Of a DNA stretch of 64,000 nucleotides, positions 427-49,983 are shown one piece after another. Each line of letters starts with the position of its first letter. The stretch's first letter is position 1. The DNA lies in the NCBI GenBank assembly GCA_031253625.1, contig JAIRVZ010000032.1, positions 1 to 64,000 of the forward strand. Direction: 5' to 3'. Below the pieces are notes generated by a model, which saw nothing but the letters and a program-made list of their open reading frames with translations, was not told where the DNA came from and made no database searches. Made by a program: the position numbers and the translations under genes. The stretch comes from Dysgonamonadaceae bacterium. Lineage in GTDB: Bacteria > Bacteroidota > Bacteroidia > Bacteroidales > Azobacteroidaceae.

Positions 427-540
427 CAATAAAAAAGTAAATTACTGAAAGGATCAAAGATTTTAACCTATGATATAAAATAAAAATCAGTGCTAACAAG
501 CACTAAATAAAACATTTTAGAAAAAAGCGTTAGCTTTTAT

Positions 541-728
541 TCTTGTTATAGAAACTTAGACAATTTCTTAAAGGAGCAAGGGTAGGTGCCGATGCTCACG
601 CCAATTCCGGCGTGGGCTTACTTATTTGCTCCAAAGGTAGTCTAATACCTCTATAACAGATATAGTTAAAGTCCCACGCTTTTGCATTTTAAATAACCTG
701 CCGATTCGGGGCCAGAGGCATCAAAAAA
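541..728 (+). ncRNA. Candidate structured 5'-UTR RNA, copy 1 (unidentified family)
   Basis: Nested stems TGTTATAGA(544-552)/TCTATAACA(650-658), TTAGAC(556-561)/GTCTAA(640-645), GGAGCAA(573-579)/TTGCTCC(626-632), GCTCACGCC(594-602)/GGCGTGGGC(609-617); alternative pairing GCGTGGG(610-616)/CCCACGC(673-679); same architecture at 42051-42228. Confidence 0.6.
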
Positions 729-740
729 TTATTATTATTT

Positions 741-3737
741 ATGAGAAAAAATTTATTTTTACTGCTCTCCTGTAGTCTGATGGCAGTATACGGCTTTGCA
801 CAAACATTTATACCACCGTCAGATGACGTTCCCGGTGTATATGTCTATTCAATTGAAGATGGCAACAGCTTTTCTGGTGCAAATATCATGTTAGGTGATA
901 ATTTCAATGTGTGGCCATGGTCAGCAGGTTGGGATAAAGCTTTCACGCCAGAGAAAGGTGGAACGTACACAATGAAATTCACATTTCAGACTACCGGTTC
1001 ATTTGGAGGTATGCGTGTTCGTTGGATTACTGACAACAACTACGGAATAGACAAAGGAGAACCTTTTACAGTCGGTATGTTTGGTGAAGGCGAAGGTGGT
1101 CCCAACAGATTTACAGCCTTGAACGAAAACAATGCTGTTGCTGATGGTGTTTCTTGTTATTTCACAGGAGGTCCTGCTTATGGAATTGACGAGGAATATA
1201 CTCATATCGTTAACTTCACAATGGATGATGTAGCTGCAGGTGAAAATATCGGCAGTCTTGGTATTCGCGGAGGCGCAGGTGCAAACGCATTTATTGTTAA
1301 TACGATTGTGATTACAGACTCCAAGGGTAATATGCTCGTGAATTATGCAAGAAATCCGGCATCGCAATACTTTAATATTACCGCTACAGCCGGCACAGGA
1401 GGCAGTATTTCTCCAAATGGAGCAATAACAGTCGATTCCGGGGACAATCAAACATTTACTTTTGCACCCAACTCAGGTTATAAAATCAATCGGGTATTAA
1501 TTGATGGAGTAAATAATCCTACAGCCGTTTCTCAAGGAAGTTATACTTTCACAAACGTTACGAAAAATCATACTATTGCTGTTTCTTTTATATCTGACTC
1601 TCTAATAGAAACTGGTTGGTCTTTCGGTTTTGAACCATCAGAAATGGGAGAAGGGATGGAACCATGGATTATTTTAAACTCAAATGGAGCAACATTCGAG
1701 ATTACCAACGACGCAAAAACAGGAAGTGGTGCAATGAAAGTAGATGTAACCGAAACTGCGGATCGAATTTGGAAAGCCCAAATCCAAGCTCCTACTTTTA
1801 AAGTAATTCCAGGGCACACATATAAACTCTCTTTTTGGGCAAAAATGATAGGAGACAGTCCCAGTTGGGTGCGAGTTGCAAGCGAAGATACACCACTCAA
1901 TACTATGGGTGAGGACGTAAGTGCCAGCGGTGCACAATTAGGTTATTATGATGGACCACCTCGACCAAGTGGTTATTGGCCATATATCAATGATATAACA
2001 AATACTTGGCAAGAATTTGTTTATGATAATCTCGTCCCAAATCAAGATGAAGACTTTGATGGTGTTGTAACGTTGAATTTTAACTTCGGAACTCCTGTTG
2101 ATGAGGCAGGTATGTATTATAATCCGGATGTCATTGAGGCTGCTCATAGAATTTATTTTATTGATGATATTACACTTATTGATTTAGAGACAACTCCACC
2201 GGAACCCGAAAAATTTACGATTACCGCTATGGTCGGTGGTGATGCTCATGGTAGTATTTCTCCAAGTGGAACAATAACCGTAAATCGTGGAGACAATCAA
2301 ACATTTACTTTTACTCCAGATGTAGGTCATAAAATCTATAGAGTGCGAATTGATGGAGTAAATAATCTTACAGCTGTTTTGCAAGGAAGTTACACTTTCA
2401 CAAATGTAATAGCAAATCATACTATTGATATTGCTTTTGTCTCTGACACTCCACTTACCGATTGGCCTTTCGGTTTTGAACCATCAGAAATGAGAGAAGG
2501 AATGGAGCCATGTACTATTCTAAACTCAGATGGAGCAACGTTTGAAATTACAAGCGATGCATACATGGGAAATGGGGCATTGAAAGTTAATGTATCTGAA
2601 ACAGCAGATATGGCTTGGAAAGCTCAATTCGTAATCCCATTTTTTAACGTAACTCCGGGACACAAATACAGATTTTCTTTTTGGGCAAAAATGACAGGCA
2701 CGGAACAAAGCTGGTTAAGAGTTTCAAGTGAAGATACGCCACTTGATAATTTTGGAAATGACCTAAGTACCAGCGGTGCACAATTAGGACCGGATTGTTA
2801 TCTTCCGGATTGTCGTGATGCTGATGGTCTACCTGAAATATATTGGCCATTTATTACTAATATCTCAGATACTTGGCAGAAATTTGTTTACGACGATATT
2901 ATTACAAATCAAGAAGGAAACTTTAATGGTGTTGTAACATTGAGTTTCAATTTCGGGACACCTATTAATGAGGATGGAAAGGAATATATGCCGGAGCCTG
3001 TTATTCAGGGTGCTCGGACTTATTTTCTTGATAATATTATGCTTGTCGATTTGAATGCAACTCCTCCAGAACCTGAAAATGTATATCTCACAGTAACAAC
3101 AAATAACAACGATTTGGGAACTGTTTTAGGAGAAGGTTCTTATACCCGAAATTCACAAGTAACAATTTATGCTATTCCAAATATTAATGTTGTTTTTACA
3201 GGTTGGACAGACGGAAATACCGACAATCCTCGAAAAATAATTGTATCGGAAAATTCAACTTTCACAGCTAACTTTGAGGGACGCAATGTCACGGAACTTT
3301 TATCTCAGATTGCAGGATTGGAAACTGATACGGTAATTTATCGTGCACAAATTATAGAATTAAAAACCGATATAGTTGCATTAGAGACCTTCATTAGCAA
3401 TTTGCAAGGATTATTGGACGCTGCAAGTAACACCATTCTTGATTTACAAGAACAGTTAGACGAGTTGGAAAATCAATTAAAAGAATGCAAGGAAGGTAAT
3501 TCAGCCCCGCCATTAAAAGTTGAATCGTTGCAATTATATCCTAATCCTGCCACAGATCATATTACTATTTCAGGGTTAAAAGGGAATGAAATACTTCGTT
3601 TTTACGACATTAATGGCATCTTATTATTTAGTAAAGAGGCTATGCAAGAAACGGAAAATATTTCAATAAACCATTTACCGGCAGGTATATATTTGGTAAG
3701 AATAGGTAATAGTGCAATAAGAGTAATGAAGAAATAA
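741..3737 (+). CDS. Secreted multidomain protein: duplicated CBM-like modules, InlB-like repeats, coiled coil, T9SS type A C-terminal sorting domain
   Basis: Signal peptide; two ~200-aa repeats (WxFGFEPSEMxEGMEP...); repeated TITAxxGGxxGSISPxGTITVxxGDNQTFTFxP; C-term LQLYPNPATDHITISG...LPAGIYLVRI. Confidence 0.85.
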   Translation: MRKNLFLLLSCSLMAVYGFAQTFIPPSDDVPGVYVYSIEDGNSFSGANIMLGDNFNVWPWSAGWDKAFTPEKGGTYTMKFTFQTTGSFGGMRVRWITDNNYGIDKGEPFTVGMFGEGEGGPNRFTALNENNAVADGVSCYFTGGPAYGIDEEYTHIVNFTMDDVAAGENIGSLGIRGGAGANAFIVNTIVITDSKGNMLVNYARNPASQYFNITATAGTGGSISPNGAITVDSGDNQTFTFAPNSGYKINRVLIDGVNNPTAVSQGSYTFTNVTKNHTIAVSFISDSLIETGWSFGFEPSEMGEGMEPWIILNSNGATFEITNDAKTGSGAMKVDVTETADRIWKAQIQAPTFKVIPGHTYKLSFWAKMIGDSPSWVRVASEDTPLNTMGEDVSASGAQLGYYDGPPRPSGYWPYINDITNTWQEFVYDNLVPNQDEDFDGVVTLNFNFGTPVDEAGMYYNPDVIEAAHRIYFIDDITLIDLETTPPEPEKFTITAMVGGDAHGSISPSGTITVNRGDNQTFTFTPDVGHKIYRVRIDGVNNLTAVLQGSYTFTNVIANHTIDIAFVSDTPLTDWPFGFEPSEMREGMEPCTILNSDGATFEITSDAYMGNGALKVNVSETADMAWKAQFVIPFFNVTPGHKYRFSFWAKMTGTEQSWLRVSSEDTPLDNFGNDLSTSGAQLGPDCYLPDCRDADGLPEIYWPFITNISDTWQKFVYDDIITNQEGNFNGVVTLSFNFGTPINEDGKEYMPEPVIQGARTYFLDNIMLVDLNATPPEPENVYLTVTTNNNDLGTVLGEGSYTRNSQVTIYAIPNINVVFTGWTDGNTDNPRKIIVSENSTFTANFEGRNVTELLSQIAGLETDTVIYRAQIIELKTDIVALETFISNLQGLLDAASNTILDLQEQLDELENQLKECKEGNSAPPLKVESLQLYPNPATDHITISGLKGNEILRFYDINGILLFSKEAMQETENISINHLPAGIYLVRIGNSAIRVMKK

Positions 3738-41905: not shown

Positions 41906-41913
41906 TATATTTG
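41906..41913 (+). promoter_or_regulatory. Bacteroidetes -7 element (TATATTTG), possible promoter of the peptide-export operon
   Basis: TATATTTGC; would give ~325-nt 5'UTR carrying structured RNA copy 2. Confidence 0.5.
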
Positions 41914-42050
41914 CAAACGCAACAGTTCATTTTGGGAACTAAAATACTTGAAGTGTTAGGAATAATAACTACATTTGCCGTGCCGGTGAATTCATAACCG
42001 GCATAACTTATTGGTAAAATCAAACATGGAAAGTGTTTGACTTATTTCTC

Positions 42051-42228
42051 TCAAGTGAAATCTAGTAAATTTTGGAGTGAGAGTAAGTTGAATAGTTCTC
42101 ATGCCTTTACAGGCGTGGACTGTTGCTTATTTTAACTCCAAGGCATACTAGAGCCCCACTTGATAAAGTATGGCAAAGGTTCACGCTTTCTTCTTGTAAA
42201 ACAATCTCCTTTTTTGAACCAGAGGATA
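42051..42228 (+). ncRNA. Candidate structured 5'-UTR RNA, copy 2 (unidentified family)
   Basis: Stems TCAAGTG(42051-57)/CACTTGA(42157-63), TCTAGTA(42061-67)/TACTAGA(42146-52), TTGGAGT(42072-78)/ACTCCAA(42135-41), CATGCCT(42100-06)/AGGCGTG(42111-17); alternative GCGTGGAC(42113-20)/GTTCACGC(42179-86). Confidence 0.6.
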
Positions 42229-42243
42229 ATTGACATTCGCTGT

Positions 42244-43401
42244 ATGAAGCAATTATTTCCTGTCGAAATTGTCGAAAATTCCGTTCAAACACACTGGACA
42301 AAACGACATTCCAAATCTAAAATCATTTATTTCATTATTATTGTCAGTCTGATAGCCACTTTGGGCAGCTTGCCTTTTATTTATGTAGATGTATCCATAC
42401 AAAGCAGAGGGATAGTCAGGTCGGTAAATGAGAACAATAGCATACAATCGGTTGTTTATGCGGAAATTGTAAAAATAGAAATATTTGAAAACAAAGCTGT
42501 TAATGCCGGAGATACCCTGATATGGCTCAGAACTGATGAATTAGATGAACAAATATGCAGATTAGAAGAAAGGCAAATCGAAAACAGCTTATTTATAAAG
42601 GATTTGAACAATTTACTGTCGAATTCACACAAAAATGTATCAACGCCCAAATACAAATCCGAGTTGGTGCAGTATAGAACCAAACTTGCGGAACAAGATG
42701 TAATATTAAAACAAACCAAAACAGCATATGAAATATCGAAAACTCTTTATGAAAAAGGGATTGAAGCACGGTTTGAACATCAGCAAACAGAAAGCAAATA
42801 CCAATCTTCCAAATCGCAAAAGGAACTGGTTCACCGGCAGCAAATGAATAACTGGCAAGCCGAAATGACACGCTTGGAATACGAGAACAAAGATTTGCAC
42901 TCTCAACTACAACAATTGATAAAAAGAAAAAAGCAATATATCATAACAGCTCCTGTCGGCGGGAATATTGTACAATATAATAGTATTCAACCCGGCAATT
43001 TTACACAAACAGGACAGACTATTGCCCAAATCACTATATCCGATACTCTATTAATCGAATGTTATATATCTTCTGCCGACATTGGCTATATCGAAAAAGG
43101 GCAAAAAATACAGGTGCAAGTCGATACCTATAACTATCAACAATGGGGACTTTTAGAAGGAAAAGTCGCAGAAATTTTGCCCGATATAGCAGAAATAAAT
43201 AATATGCCATGTTTCCGGGTCAGGTGTGCAATGAACAGCAATTATTTAGAATTGCCCAACGGATATAAGGGTTATATGAAAAAAGGCATGACCATTACAG
43301 GCAGGTTTTTCCTGACAAGACGTTCATTGCTTCAACTGTTATTCGACAAGATAGACGATTGGATGAATCCTAAAATAATAAACCATGGGAATAAAAGTTA
43401 A
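42244..43401 (+). CDS. HlyD/membrane-fusion adaptor protein for peptide export
   Basis: Single N-term TM, coiled coil, ITAPVGGNIVQYNSIQPGNFTQTGQTIAQI lipoyl-like motif; overlaps the ABC exporter. Confidence 0.9.
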   Translation: MKQLFPVEIVENSVQTHWTKRHSKSKIIYFIIIVSLIATLGSLPFIYVDVSIQSRGIVRSVNENNSIQSVVYAEIVKIEIFENKAVNAGDTLIWLRTDELDEQICRLEERQIENSLFIKDLNNLLSNSHKNVSTPKYKSELVQYRTKLAEQDVILKQTKTAYEISKTLYEKGIEARFEHQQTESKYQSSKSQKELVHRQQMNNWQAEMTRLEYENKDLHSQLQQLIKRKKQYIITAPVGGNIVQYNSIQPGNFTQTGQTIAQITISDTLLIECYISSADIGYIEKGQKIQVQVDTYNYQQWGLLEGKVAEILPDIAEINNMPCFRVRCAMNSNYLELPNGYKGYMKKGMTITGRFFLTRRSLLQLLFDKIDDWMNPKIINHGNKS

Positions 43402-45541
43402 ACAACGCGATATAACAGATTGCGGAGCAGCCTGTATAGCCTCCGTTTCGGAATATTACAAACTGAAATTACCTGTCGCAAAAATTCGACAAATAGCAGG
43501 AACAGACCAAAAAGGAACAAATGTTTTGGGAATGATTAAAGCTGCCGAGCAGTTGGGTTTTGAGGCCAAAGGCGTGAAAGGCACAATCGATTCGCTTTCT
43601 AAAATTCCCTTGCCGGCAATAGCGCATATTCTTGTAAATGGGATACTTCAGCATTATGTAGTTATTTATTCCATCTCAAGGGGCAAGGTAAAGTATATGA
43701 ATCCGTCAGATGGTAAAATACATAAAACGAGTGTTGAAGATTTTGCAAAAATATGGACAGGCGTACTCGTTTTGCTTATACCTTGCGATGATTTCAAACC
43801 GGCCAATGAGAAAATCTCAAATCTGTCGCGCTTTTTCTTCCTGTTGCGCCCGCACAAAGGCATATTGCTGCAATGTTTGGTTGGAGCCATTATTTATACT
43901 GCATTGGGGTTATCCACTTCTATTTATGTAGGTAAGATAACCGATTATGTGCTGATTGGCGGCAATACAAACCTGTTGAACCTGATGAGTATGGGTATGC
44001 TCGTCATACTGGTATTGAGGGTTCTTTTGTCGGTATTTCAAAGCTTGTTCATGTTGAACACAGGGCAGCAAATAGACGCCCGGCTTATACTTGGCTATTA
44101 CAAACACCTGCTGAAACTACCGCAACGTTTTTTCGATACTATGAGGGTAGGGGAAATTATTTCCCGCGTGAATGATGCCGTAAAAATCAGGGCGTTTATC
44201 AATGACGTTGCTATTGCGTTAATCGTGAATGTTTTTATTGTGATATTCTCATTTGCGTTGATGTTTATATACAGTTGGAAATTGGCTTTGGTGATACTCA
44301 TCACAATTCCACTTTATGCAATTATTTATTTTATTGTAAACAAGTTGAATAAAAAGCAGGAACGCAAAGTGATGGAAAGCGCCGCCGAATTGGAAAGCCA
44401 GCTGGTTGAATCTCTTAACTTGGTAAAAACAATCAAGCAATTCGGGGTCGAAGAATTTACCAACCTGAAAACGGAAAATCGTTTTATCAAGTTGCTCAAT
44501 ACGGTTTATCGCTCAGGAATCAACTCCATATTTTCCGGTGAAAGTTCCGGATTTATCAATTTTCTTTTCACGATAATTTTATTATGGACAGGTGCATATT
44601 TGGTGTTGGATAATGAACTGACAGCCGGAACCTTGTTTTCGTTTTATGCCATTATCGGTTATTTTACCTCTCCGATAGCGTCGCTGATTGGCGTAAACAA
44701 AACAGTTCAGAATGCTTTGATAGCAGCCGACCGTCTTTTTGAAATTATGGATTTGGAAAGAGAAAGCGACGACGACAAAGAAAAGATAACATTTAACCCC
44801 GAATTAACCGGAAATATCCTGTTTGACAACATTTCCTTTAGTTATGGAACGCGCACACAAGTCTTCGAAAATTTCACATTAGAAATACCCAAAGGAAAAA
44901 TAACGGCTATCATCGGAGAAAGCGGTTCGGGAAAAACAACGCTTGCCGTACTTTTACAAAAACTGTATACGCTTAATGGCGGAAAGATACGCATCGGAGA
45001 ACACAACATCAACTATTTCAGCAATAGCAGCATACGCGAATGTGTGGCTACCGTGCCTCAGCAAATTGATTTATTTTCGGGAACAATCATCGAAAATATA
45101 GCTTTAGGAGAGTTTAATCCGGATATGGAGCGAGTTATTGAAATCTGTAAAAATCTGGGCATTATGCAATTGATAGAAAACCTTCCCGGAGGCTTTGCCG
45201 CCCGCATCGGCGAGCATGGCGTAGGATTATCGGGTGGAGAAAAACAACGGATTGCCATTGCAAGAGCATTATATCGCCAACCCGAAATATTGATTATGGA
45301 CGAGGCGACTTCTTCGTTAGATTCGGATTCGGAATATTGTGTACAGCAAACTATCTCGAATTACAACCGGCAGGGAAAAACGGTAATTATCATTGCTCAT
45401 CGTTTAAGTACAGTTATGTCGGCAGATAAAATTGTAATTCTCGAAAAAGGAAAGCTAATCGAAGAAGGTACCCATGCTCAACTTTACAAAGAAGGCACAA
45501 TATATTATGATATGTGGCAAAAACAAATCCCGGTTACATGA
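43385..45541 (+). CDS. C39 peptidase-containing ABC transporter (PCAT)
   Basis: C39: QRDITDCGAACIAS, LQHYVVI, NPSDG; NBD: IGESGSGKTTLAVLL, LSGGEKQRIAIARAL, ILIMDEATSSLD. Confidence 0.96.
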   Translation: MGIKVKQRDITDCGAACIASVSEYYKLKLPVAKIRQIAGTDQKGTNVLGMIKAAEQLGFEAKGVKGTIDSLSKIPLPAIAHILVNGILQHYVVIYSISRGKVKYMNPSDGKIHKTSVEDFAKIWTGVLVLLIPCDDFKPANEKISNLSRFFFLLRPHKGILLQCLVGAIIYTALGLSTSIYVGKITDYVLIGGNTNLLNLMSMGMLVILVLRVLLSVFQSLFMLNTGQQIDARLILGYYKHLLKLPQRFFDTMRVGEIISRVNDAVKIRAFINDVAIALIVNVFIVIFSFALMFIYSWKLALVILITIPLYAIIYFIVNKLNKKQERKVMESAAELESQLVESLNLVKTIKQFGVEEFTNLKTENRFIKLLNTVYRSGINSIFSGESSGFINFLFTIILLWTGAYLVLDNELTAGTLFSFYAIIGYFTSPIASLIGVNKTVQNALIAADRLFEIMDLERESDDDKEKITFNPELTGNILFDNISFSYGTRTQVFENFTLEIPKGKITAIIGESGSGKTTLAVLLQKLYTLNGGKIRIGEHNINYFSNSSIRECVATVPQQIDLFSGTIIENIALGEFNPDMERVIEICKNLGIMQLIENLPGGFAARIGEHGVGLSGGEKQRIAIARALYRQPEILIMDEATSSLDSDSEYCVQQTISNYNRQGKTVIIIAHRLSTVMSADKIVILEKGKLIEEGTHAQLYKEGTIYYDMWQKQIPVT

Positions 45542-45882
45542 ATATTTTCAATACAATAGAACGAATAAACCGGTTACATGTTTTGATAAAGACAGGCAGA
45601 ACCGGAAATCCCGAAACTTTGGCAAAGCGATTGGGAATAAGCAGGGCAAGCCTGTATAATTTGCTCGAAGAATTAAAATCCGTTAAAGCTCCGATAGCAT
45701 ATTCACGCACTCTTGAATCTTTCTTATATACAAAAGAGTTTAATTTAGAACTGAAGTATATTGTTGAAATTGAAATGAATGAAGAATTAACAAAAATTAA
45801 CGGCGGCGAATATTCTTTTTTTCTTCCGTATAATTTTTTAGACGGAAGGATGATATTTTTGCCTCATCTGACAAATTTTTAA
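45538..45882 (+). CDS. Small HTH-domain protein, possible regulator of the peptide locus
   Basis: ETLAKRLGISRASLYNLLEELKSVKAPIAYSRTLESFLY; ATGA overlap with transporter stop. Confidence 0.75.
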   Translation: MNIFNTIERINRLHVLIKTGRTGNPETLAKRLGISRASLYNLLEELKSVKAPIAYSRTLESFLYTKEFNLELKYIVEIEMNEELTKINGGEYSFFLPYNFLDGRMIFLPHLTNF

Positions 45883-45960: not shown

Positions 45961-46197
45961 ATGAAAACATTGGATTTGAATGCCTATGGCGTGGAAGAAA
46001 TGAATCAACTGGAAATGAAAAATGTTGATGGTGGTCTTGTAGAAACAAACACCTTAGATATACCAGATGGTGTGGATGAGTCTCGTTGGCGTTGGTATGC
46101 AGCTGCTTTGATTATTATAGGAGTTATAACATTTGACCCTGTGGTCGTACTTATGGGATCGATTTTGGGTGGAGCTGATGCTATTACCGGAGGTTAA
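45961..46197 (+). CDS. Double-glycine-leader peptide precursor 1 (bacteriocin-like)
   Basis: 25-aa leader MKTLDLNAYGVEEMNQLEMKNVDGG, 53-aa core LVETNTLDIPDGVDESRWRWYAAALIIIGVITFDPVVVLMGSILGGADAITGG. Confidence 0.88.
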   Translation: MKTLDLNAYGVEEMNQLEMKNVDGGLVETNTLDIPDGVDESRWRWYAAALIIIGVITFDPVVVLMGSILGGADAITGG

Positions 46198-49183: not shown

Positions 49184-49983
49184 CACCTATAAAAGTTGTG
49201 GAGTTGAAAAAATCCGGAACGGATTAAATCTTGGTAGCCCGATGTGAAACGTCGGGAAACGAAACAAACAAGCCACATCCAAGTGGCGAAGCCCCGAAAT
49301 AAATTTTTCTAAAACTGAGATTCTAAAAAAAATAATGTATTTTTGCGCTAAAGTATTAACCAATAAACATTTTTTTTATGGCTGGAACCTATTCCCAAAT
49401 GCACATACAATTAGTATTTGCTGTAAAAAATCATCAATCCTCCTTTATTAGGAAAGAACATAAGGATGAAATTGAAAAATATATTGCAGGCATTATTGCA
49501 AACAATAACTGCAAATTATTAGTAATATATTGCAATCCTGATCATGTCCATATTCTAATTGGCTCACGCCCCAGTGTATTATTGTCAGAATTAGTCCGGA
49601 AAATTAAATCTTCATCATCCAAATTTATTCACGAGAAATTTGATCAAAACAAGCATTTTGCATGGCAAGAAGGATATGGAGTGTTTACCTATAGTCGGTC
49701 ACAAGTGGATTTGGTGATAAACTACATATTAAATCAAAAAGAACATCACCACAGGAAAACATTTCGTGAAGAATATATCGATATGTTGAAAAAATCACGA
49801 ATAGATTTTGATAAAAAATATTTGTTTGATTGACATAACATAAATATTTGGCTAATGCCGAACGTTATTTCGGGGCTTCGCCACTTGGATGTGGCTTGTT
49901 TGTTTCGTTTCCCGACGTTTCACATCGGGCTACCAAGATTTAATCCGTTCCGGATTTTTTCAACTCCACAACTTTTGCAGGTG
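49184..49983 (+). mobile_element. IS200/RAYT-like element bounded by ~119-bp inverted repeats
   Basis: Arms 49184-49302 and 49865-49983 match except 2 positions (112 bp identical) around the TnpA-like gene. Confidence 0.85.
49378..49833 (+). CDS. IS200/IS605-family TnpA / REP-associated tyrosine transposase
   Basis: YSQMHIQLVFAVKNHQSSF, YCNPDHVHILIGSRPS (HUH), QEGYGVFTYSRSQVDLVINYILNQKEHH. Confidence 0.92.
   Translation: MAGTYSQMHIQLVFAVKNHQSSFIRKEHKDEIEKYIAGIIANNNCKLLVIYCNPDHVHILIGSRPSVLLSELVRKIKSSSSKFIHEKFDQNKHFAWQEGYGVFTYSRSQVDLVINYILNQKEHHHRKTFREEYIDMLKKSRIDFDKKYLFD

Follow-up and report, generated by a model that had tools for sequence, protein, structure and literature searches.

What kind of sequence stands ahead of the HlyD-PCAT gene pair in this Dysgonamonadaceae genome, and could it control the genes that follow? 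The earlier note on the window (the whole stretch of 64,000 nucleotides analysed here) had proposed that positions 42051-42228 hold a structured 5'-leader RNA, the second of two copies in the window. Folding analysis of copy 2 bears out this prediction (z = -5.2, none of 200 shuffled sequences being equally low), and the fold of the 156-nt piece 42045-42200 reaches -53.6 kcal/mol. Every stem that had been named lay where it had been placed (Table 1), and so did the long-range complementarity of GCGTGGAC (42113-42120) with GTTCACGC (42179-42186), a pairing that is conserved across copies. The stems of copies 1 and 2 differ by compensatory changes in P1, P2 and P3, and the two copies do head the genes expected, the HlyD-PCAT pair behind copy 2 (TIGR01193) and a T9SS cargo gene behind copy 1 (TIGR04183). 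The extent of the RNA held in part: the stems lie inside the proposed interval, but the conserved element itself occupies 42033-42189, and the 3' end of the RNA takes in a further hairpin at 42205-42226. A further hairpin before 46300, which local folding had suggested, is not a copy of the RNA.

Table 1. Features of the two copies of the RNA and of their downstream genes, in window coordinates.
Feature	Position	Strand	Basis or remark
Copy 1: minimal upstream ORF ATG-ATA-TAA	470-478	+	sequence
Copy 1: same RNA	527-682	+	152 bits, E 1.7e-35; located by local folding
Copy 1: S1	595-602	+	
Copy 1: S2	609-617	+	
Copy 1: S3	670-679	+	
Copy 1: P5, carrying S4	699-720	+	
Copy 1: S4	708-712	+	
T9SS cargo protein 3' of copy 1	741-3737	+	TIGR04183
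Copy 2: likely promoter, TTG (41948-41950), 19-nt spacer, -7 box TACATTTG (41970-41977)	41948-41977	+	sequence
Copy 2: 5' hairpin TGCCGGT/ACCGGCA	41981-42003	+	sequence
Copy 2: conserved RNA element (model R1)	42033-42189	+	88.9 bits, E 3.5e-19 (genome search); copy 2 is one of the 23 rows that built R1
Copy 2: P1, TCAAGTG/CACTTGA	42051-42057/42157-42163	+	covarying helix 2
Copy 2: P2, TCTAGTA/TACTAGA, conserved internal loops on both sides	42061-42067/42146-42152	+	covarying helix 3
Copy 2: P3, TTGGAGT/ACTCCAA	42072-42078/42135-42141	+	covarying helix 4
Copy 2: P3b, AGTAAG/CTTATT	42082-42087/42126-42131	+	covarying helices 5 and 6
Copy 2: apical stem core (P4), CATGCCT/AGGCGTG	42100-42106/42111-42117	+	helix 7
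Copy 2: S1, 5' arm of apical hairpin P4	42097-42106	+	helix 7 of covariation analysis
Copy 2: S2 AGGCGTGGAC, 3' arm of P4; partner S1 or S3	42111-42120	+	S1/S2/S3 co-variation
Copy 2: S3 GGTTCACGC; partner S2 (pseudoknot) or S4	42178-42186	+	co-variation, held-out copies
Copy 2: U-rich tract TTTCTTCTTGT, immediately 3' of S3	42187-42197	+	terminator-like
Copy 2: P5 hairpin TCTCC...AGAGGA, S4 in loop	42205-42226	+	
Copy 2: S4 TGAACC, complement of S3 GGTTCA	42215-42220	+	
HlyD-family membrane fusion protein	42244-43401	+	PF13437, PF16576, TIGR01843
Peptidase-containing ABC exporter (PCAT)	43385-45541	+	PF03412, PF00664, PF00005; TIGR01193 above cut-off
Small double-glycine-leader peptide (..NVDGG..)	45961-46197	+	sequence

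The transcript that would carry copy 2 is probably shorter than had been supposed. The box TATATTTG at 41906-41913, previously taken as the promoter of a leader of about 325 nt, is present without a -33 box and is probably the wrong promoter. The arrangement TTG-N19-TACATTTG makes the likelier candidate: TACATTTG is a -7 box of the TAnnTTTG type with TTG exactly 19 nt 5' of it, it stands 63 nt 5' of the copy-2 element, and across the copies TAnnTTTG boxes gather 60-100 nt 5' of the element. With this promoter the transcription start is predicted at about 41982 and the leader at about 260 nt instead of 325. The hairpin that had been noticed in this leader was found and probably forms the extreme 5' end of the predicted transcript; many other copies have a hairpin at a comparable site, its sequence differing among them.

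Copy 1 served as query in a DNA search of the genome that contains the window plus 60 relatives; 19 of these 61 gave matches, the element being dispersed and multi-copy. With the covariance model R1 the genome of the window yields 15 copies at E <= 0.1, none of them weaker than E 0.003. The model also matched 110 of the 295 genomes sampled from the order, and 30 of 299 from the phylum, these last mostly of the same class. Some sampled genomes hold at least 10 copies, this being a lower bound because the order survey scored at most 10 candidates per genome. Carriers recognised by pattern scan include Dysgonomonas, Tannerella, Candidatus Symbiothrix, Alistipes, Rikenella, Millionella, Prevotella, Coprobacter and Barnesiella. 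Alignment of 23 copies over 40 nested pairs showed that 91.9% of the cells pair and that 25 of the 40 pairs have undergone two-sided changes, which affect 132 cells where shuffled data gave 36, with a covariation score of 0.449 compared with 0.176 for shuffled and at most 0.111 for slid alignments. Read from 5' to 3', the features follow the order promoter, variable hairpin, arm P1-P2-P3-P4, S3, U-rich tract, often P5/S4, and start codon, and the internal loops around P2 are conserved in Bacteroidales copies as GAAAC/GACC and AATTTC/GGTA. We also observed a subtype with P2 CTGGTA/TACCAG (loci L207, L209, L218, L231 and L244), which precedes SusC-like receptor genes by about 230 nt and has an output part unlike that of the Bacteroidales copies.

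How such an RNA might act is suggested by four strands, S1 to S4, which in copy 2 (TCTCATGCC, GGCGTGGAC, GGTTCACGC and TGAACC) are able to form all three pairings S1:S2, S2:S3 and S3:S4. Strand S2, of the GGCGTGGGC type, co-evolves with both S1 (hairpin P4) and the downstream S3: of 141 copies, 103 have S2 and S3 paired at seven of seven positions, and shifting S3 by 1-2 nt leaves no copy fully paired. At 34 positions S2 has changed and both S1 and S3 match the change (null mean 14.3, reached in 0 of 2000 shuffles), a few of these cases stemming from mis-picked S2 strands, and in a held-out set of 80 copies there were 8 such compensations against 2.8 under the null, reached in 5 of 2000 shuffles, all shuffle nulls ignoring relatedness. 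The S2:S3 covariation was not significant in the 23-sequence alignment and appeared in larger sets only; those pairs hardly vary among the 23 sequences, and larger sets were therefore used. Strand S3 pairs in turn with sequence lying 5-75 nt further on (z = 10.9, and 9.6 in the held-out copies); a control region 120-190 nt beyond it shows no pairing excess (z = -1.2 and -0.5). The energies of P4 and S2:S3 differ little (medians of -13.9 and -14.9 kcal/mol). As for an intrinsic terminator, in which a helix runs straight into a U tract, the tract is conserved (8-9 T per 12 nt across copies against a background of 2.7-3.7), but the S2:S3 helix spans a loop of about 50 nt. Among type A copies 51% have S4 enclosed by a P5 stem, compared with 19% at random places. 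Both downstream pairings (S2:S3 and S3:S4) replicate on the 80 held-out copies, as do the U tract and the kind of gene that follows. Taken together, the sequence comparisons give strong support to S1:S2/S2:S3 and S2:S3/S3:S4 as pairings that exclude each other in the manner of an attenuator or riboswitch. Pairing of the 5' edge with S3 (AAAGCG/CGCTTT) is weakly supported (z = 4.4). Type B copies (L111, L114, L135 and others) have an S3 of sequence GTTTTGTCCGCGC, then T7-ATGTGCG and a downstream GGACAAAA, so that the whole of S3 would be able to pair downstream.

The explanation that we favour, and that we hold to be reasonably probable, is a cis-acting switch RNA, a riboswitch-like attenuator, heading mRNAs of exported proteins in Bacteroidota. 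In this model the sensor would be domain P1-P3, internal loops included, and its folded (bound) state would favour S2:S3, which together with the U tract would end transcription; in the other state P4 would form, RNA polymerase would pass and S4 would then hold S3. For copy 2, the genes gated in this manner would be those of the HlyD-PCAT peptide exporter and the ones that follow them. The output might alternatively be control of translation, with the S2:S3 state freeing S4, and the termination and translation readings predict opposite directions.

That exported proteins would be the usual targets of the proposed switch RNA is indicated by the genes behind it. The earlier note had drawn its link between the RNA and export from the two genes in the window, and our survey of the genes behind homologs generalises it, about 70% of their products being signal-peptide proteins or lipoproteins; the control may thereby bear on many separate exported proteins rather than on secretion as such. 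A signal peptide or lipobox, scored by a simple hydrophobicity rule, occurs in 86 of 126 first downstream ORFs against 85 of 327 (26%) same-locus controls (Fisher p 2e-16), the controls being all of at least 200 aa, a length at which 50 of 69 of the downstream set are positive; the held-out copies gave 47 of 66 (p 1e-11). The start codon lies on the same strand at a median of 64 nt 3' of the element, and in distant copies sometimes about 230 nt away, which means that the output part varies. Downstream families include BspA-type LRR, T9SS sorting domains, HlyD, BACON, PEGA, lipocalin-like and LytTR, and in distant genomes the element also precedes apparent SusC-type receptor genes, as judged from sequence. 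HlyD-PCAT operons recur behind the RNA (L010, L011, L013 and copy 2), as do operons of an HTH gene plus double-glycine peptides (L029, L031). In the window, TIGR01193 marks the PCAT protein as a peptide cleavage/export transporter, and its substrate is likely to be the small double-glycine-leader peptide encoded at 45961-46197, for which the domain-family search returned no family match.

Several other genes were noticed in the window and at other loci of the RNA. Small HTH proteins of the MNPFDVINRLYDIHKLIQ.. type, one of them encoded at window 45514-45882, recur directly behind the RNA in other genomes (L017, L029 and L031); in L029 and L031 the HTH gene is followed by double-glycine peptides with a weak match to the class IIb bacteriocin family TIGR03949, and such loci possibly represent a bacteriocin or signalling-peptide system. 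Short HTH-like proteins starting M(E)NEKIHIGKLIRxKL.. are a recurrent first gene (L034, L131, L141, L156, L253 and L260). An IS200-type Y1 transposase gene at 49378-49833 is found near the peptide operon of the window, with no sign of moving the RNA.

Does the RNA belong to a class that has already been described? No Rfam 15 family was found for it at the gathering cut-off, permissive scans of the two window copies returned chance-level matches only (the best being U12 at E 0.004 and CRISPR-DR19 at E 0.6), and a further 5 loci gave no match, nor did 15 loci of distant phylum genomes, the latter even at E 0.1. The c-di-GMP riboswitches (GEMM) occur repeatedly in a genome, ahead of genes with surface and secreted functions. 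Our RNA resembles them in its many copies before exported-protein genes, and differs in giving no Rfam match and in the scarcity of GGDEF domains. This domain is absent from the present genome and, among the 295 genomes surveyed in the order, was found in only 11, although 110 carry the RNA, making c-di-GMP unlikely as the signal; the absence of GGDEF here led us to disfavour that candidate. With pseudoknot-platform riboswitches the RNA shares a 5' leader, a conserved arm, exclusive pairings, a U-rich tract and a multi-gene regulon, while it differs from the riboswitch families of Rfam 15 in matching none of them and in having a ligand that is only hypothesised. Of the properties expected of a riboswitch, placement in a 5' leader is indicated by position and promoter boxes, a conserved structured domain is found whose role would be that of a sensor, and the evidence for mutually exclusive folds is that of co-variation. 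Flavo-1 (RF01705) is a widespread Bacteroidota RNA motif that sometimes lies in 5' leaders (PMC9723704); the present RNA is similar in its spread through Bacteroidota and its leader placement, and dissimilar in giving no match to the RF01705 model.

The same four-strand topology could instead be worked by the ribosome. In such an attenuator, which we consider unlikely, a ribosome on an upstream ORF of 1-7 codons would report the translation state and S1-S4 would switch in the manner of ermC/tetQ, where four-strand alternative pairing is likewise accompanied by a very short leader ORF, as in many of our copies; S1:S2/S2:S3/S3:S4 is the classic attenuator topology, and tetQ of Bacteroides is translationally attenuated (PMC5418344). 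Many Bacteroidales copies do carry, between promoter and element, an ATG followed by 0-6 further codons and a stop. At GCYNATG sites 5' of the element an in-frame stop comes within 6 codons in 62 of 62 cases, whereas the two alternative frames give 23 and 33; with the ATG-NNN-stop sites set aside the figures are 35 of 35 compared with 15 and 19. The frame is under clear selection although codons vary and the peptide is not conserved (upstream parts of L083-L162). A ribosome attenuator would have a leader ORF in every copy, yet copy 2 has no ATG in the promoter-element interval, the same is true of 15 of the 105 others that have such a promoter box, and the ORF is missing in most distant copies. 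The distant held-out set yielded 5 GCYNATG sites only and a promoter-anchored in-frame test of 13 of 19 against 9 and 8; the mini-ORF was not replicated there, and we rejected it as a general feature of the family. Moreover, the ORF lies more than 100 nt 5' of S1, so that direct masking of S1 by a ribosome is not expected, and the targets, unlike those of ermC and tetQ, are not resistance genes. For some members of the family the mini-ORF may supply an additional input on the state of translation.

It is also improbable, to a similar degree, that a regulatory protein or a ribosomal or RNA-polymerase factor bound to the conserved arm sets the switch: the large arm with its internal loops would suit it, and many unlinked targets per genome accord with a trans-acting protein as well as with a ligand, but a non-systematic look saw no constant regulator gene beside the copies, and the downstream families are very diverse. 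Far less probable is a mobile repeat or promoter-leader cassette devoid of regulation of its own. Copies are many and dispersed, several near contig ends, as such a repeat would have it, whereas the structure is kept through deep sequence divergence, the placement before genes is fixed, and searches of plasmids, phages and viral contigs gave no match to the RNA. Equally hard to sustain is a stable trans-acting small RNA that ends at the U tract while downstream genes use other promoters; the unit from promoter to U tract measures about 230 nt in most copies, which would be fitting, but S4, beyond the U tract, co-varies with S3, and the element stands a median 64 nt from a same-strand start codon.

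Taking all the results, we are dealing with a real and widespread class of cis-regulatory RNA with switch architecture that is tied to exported proteins and, as far as open-access papers go, is apparently undescribed. Whether it is a new, widespread Bacteroidota riboswitch class, sensing some metabolite or a second messenger that is not c-di-GMP, and governing many exported proteins per genome, is a possibility that we advance tentatively, the label riboswitch being a hypothesis. If true, the regulon of this riboswitch would comprise lipoproteins, T9SS cargo, SusC-like receptors and bacteriocin-type exporters in genera including Alistipes, Prevotella and Dysgonomonas. The RNA would then be a regulator of major importance for Bacteroidota of the gut and the environment, present in more than one third of the sampled genomes of the order and lacking an Rfam entry, and one signal would be tied to a surface and secretion regulon, offering a target for ligand discovery in cultured Alistipes and Dysgonomonas.
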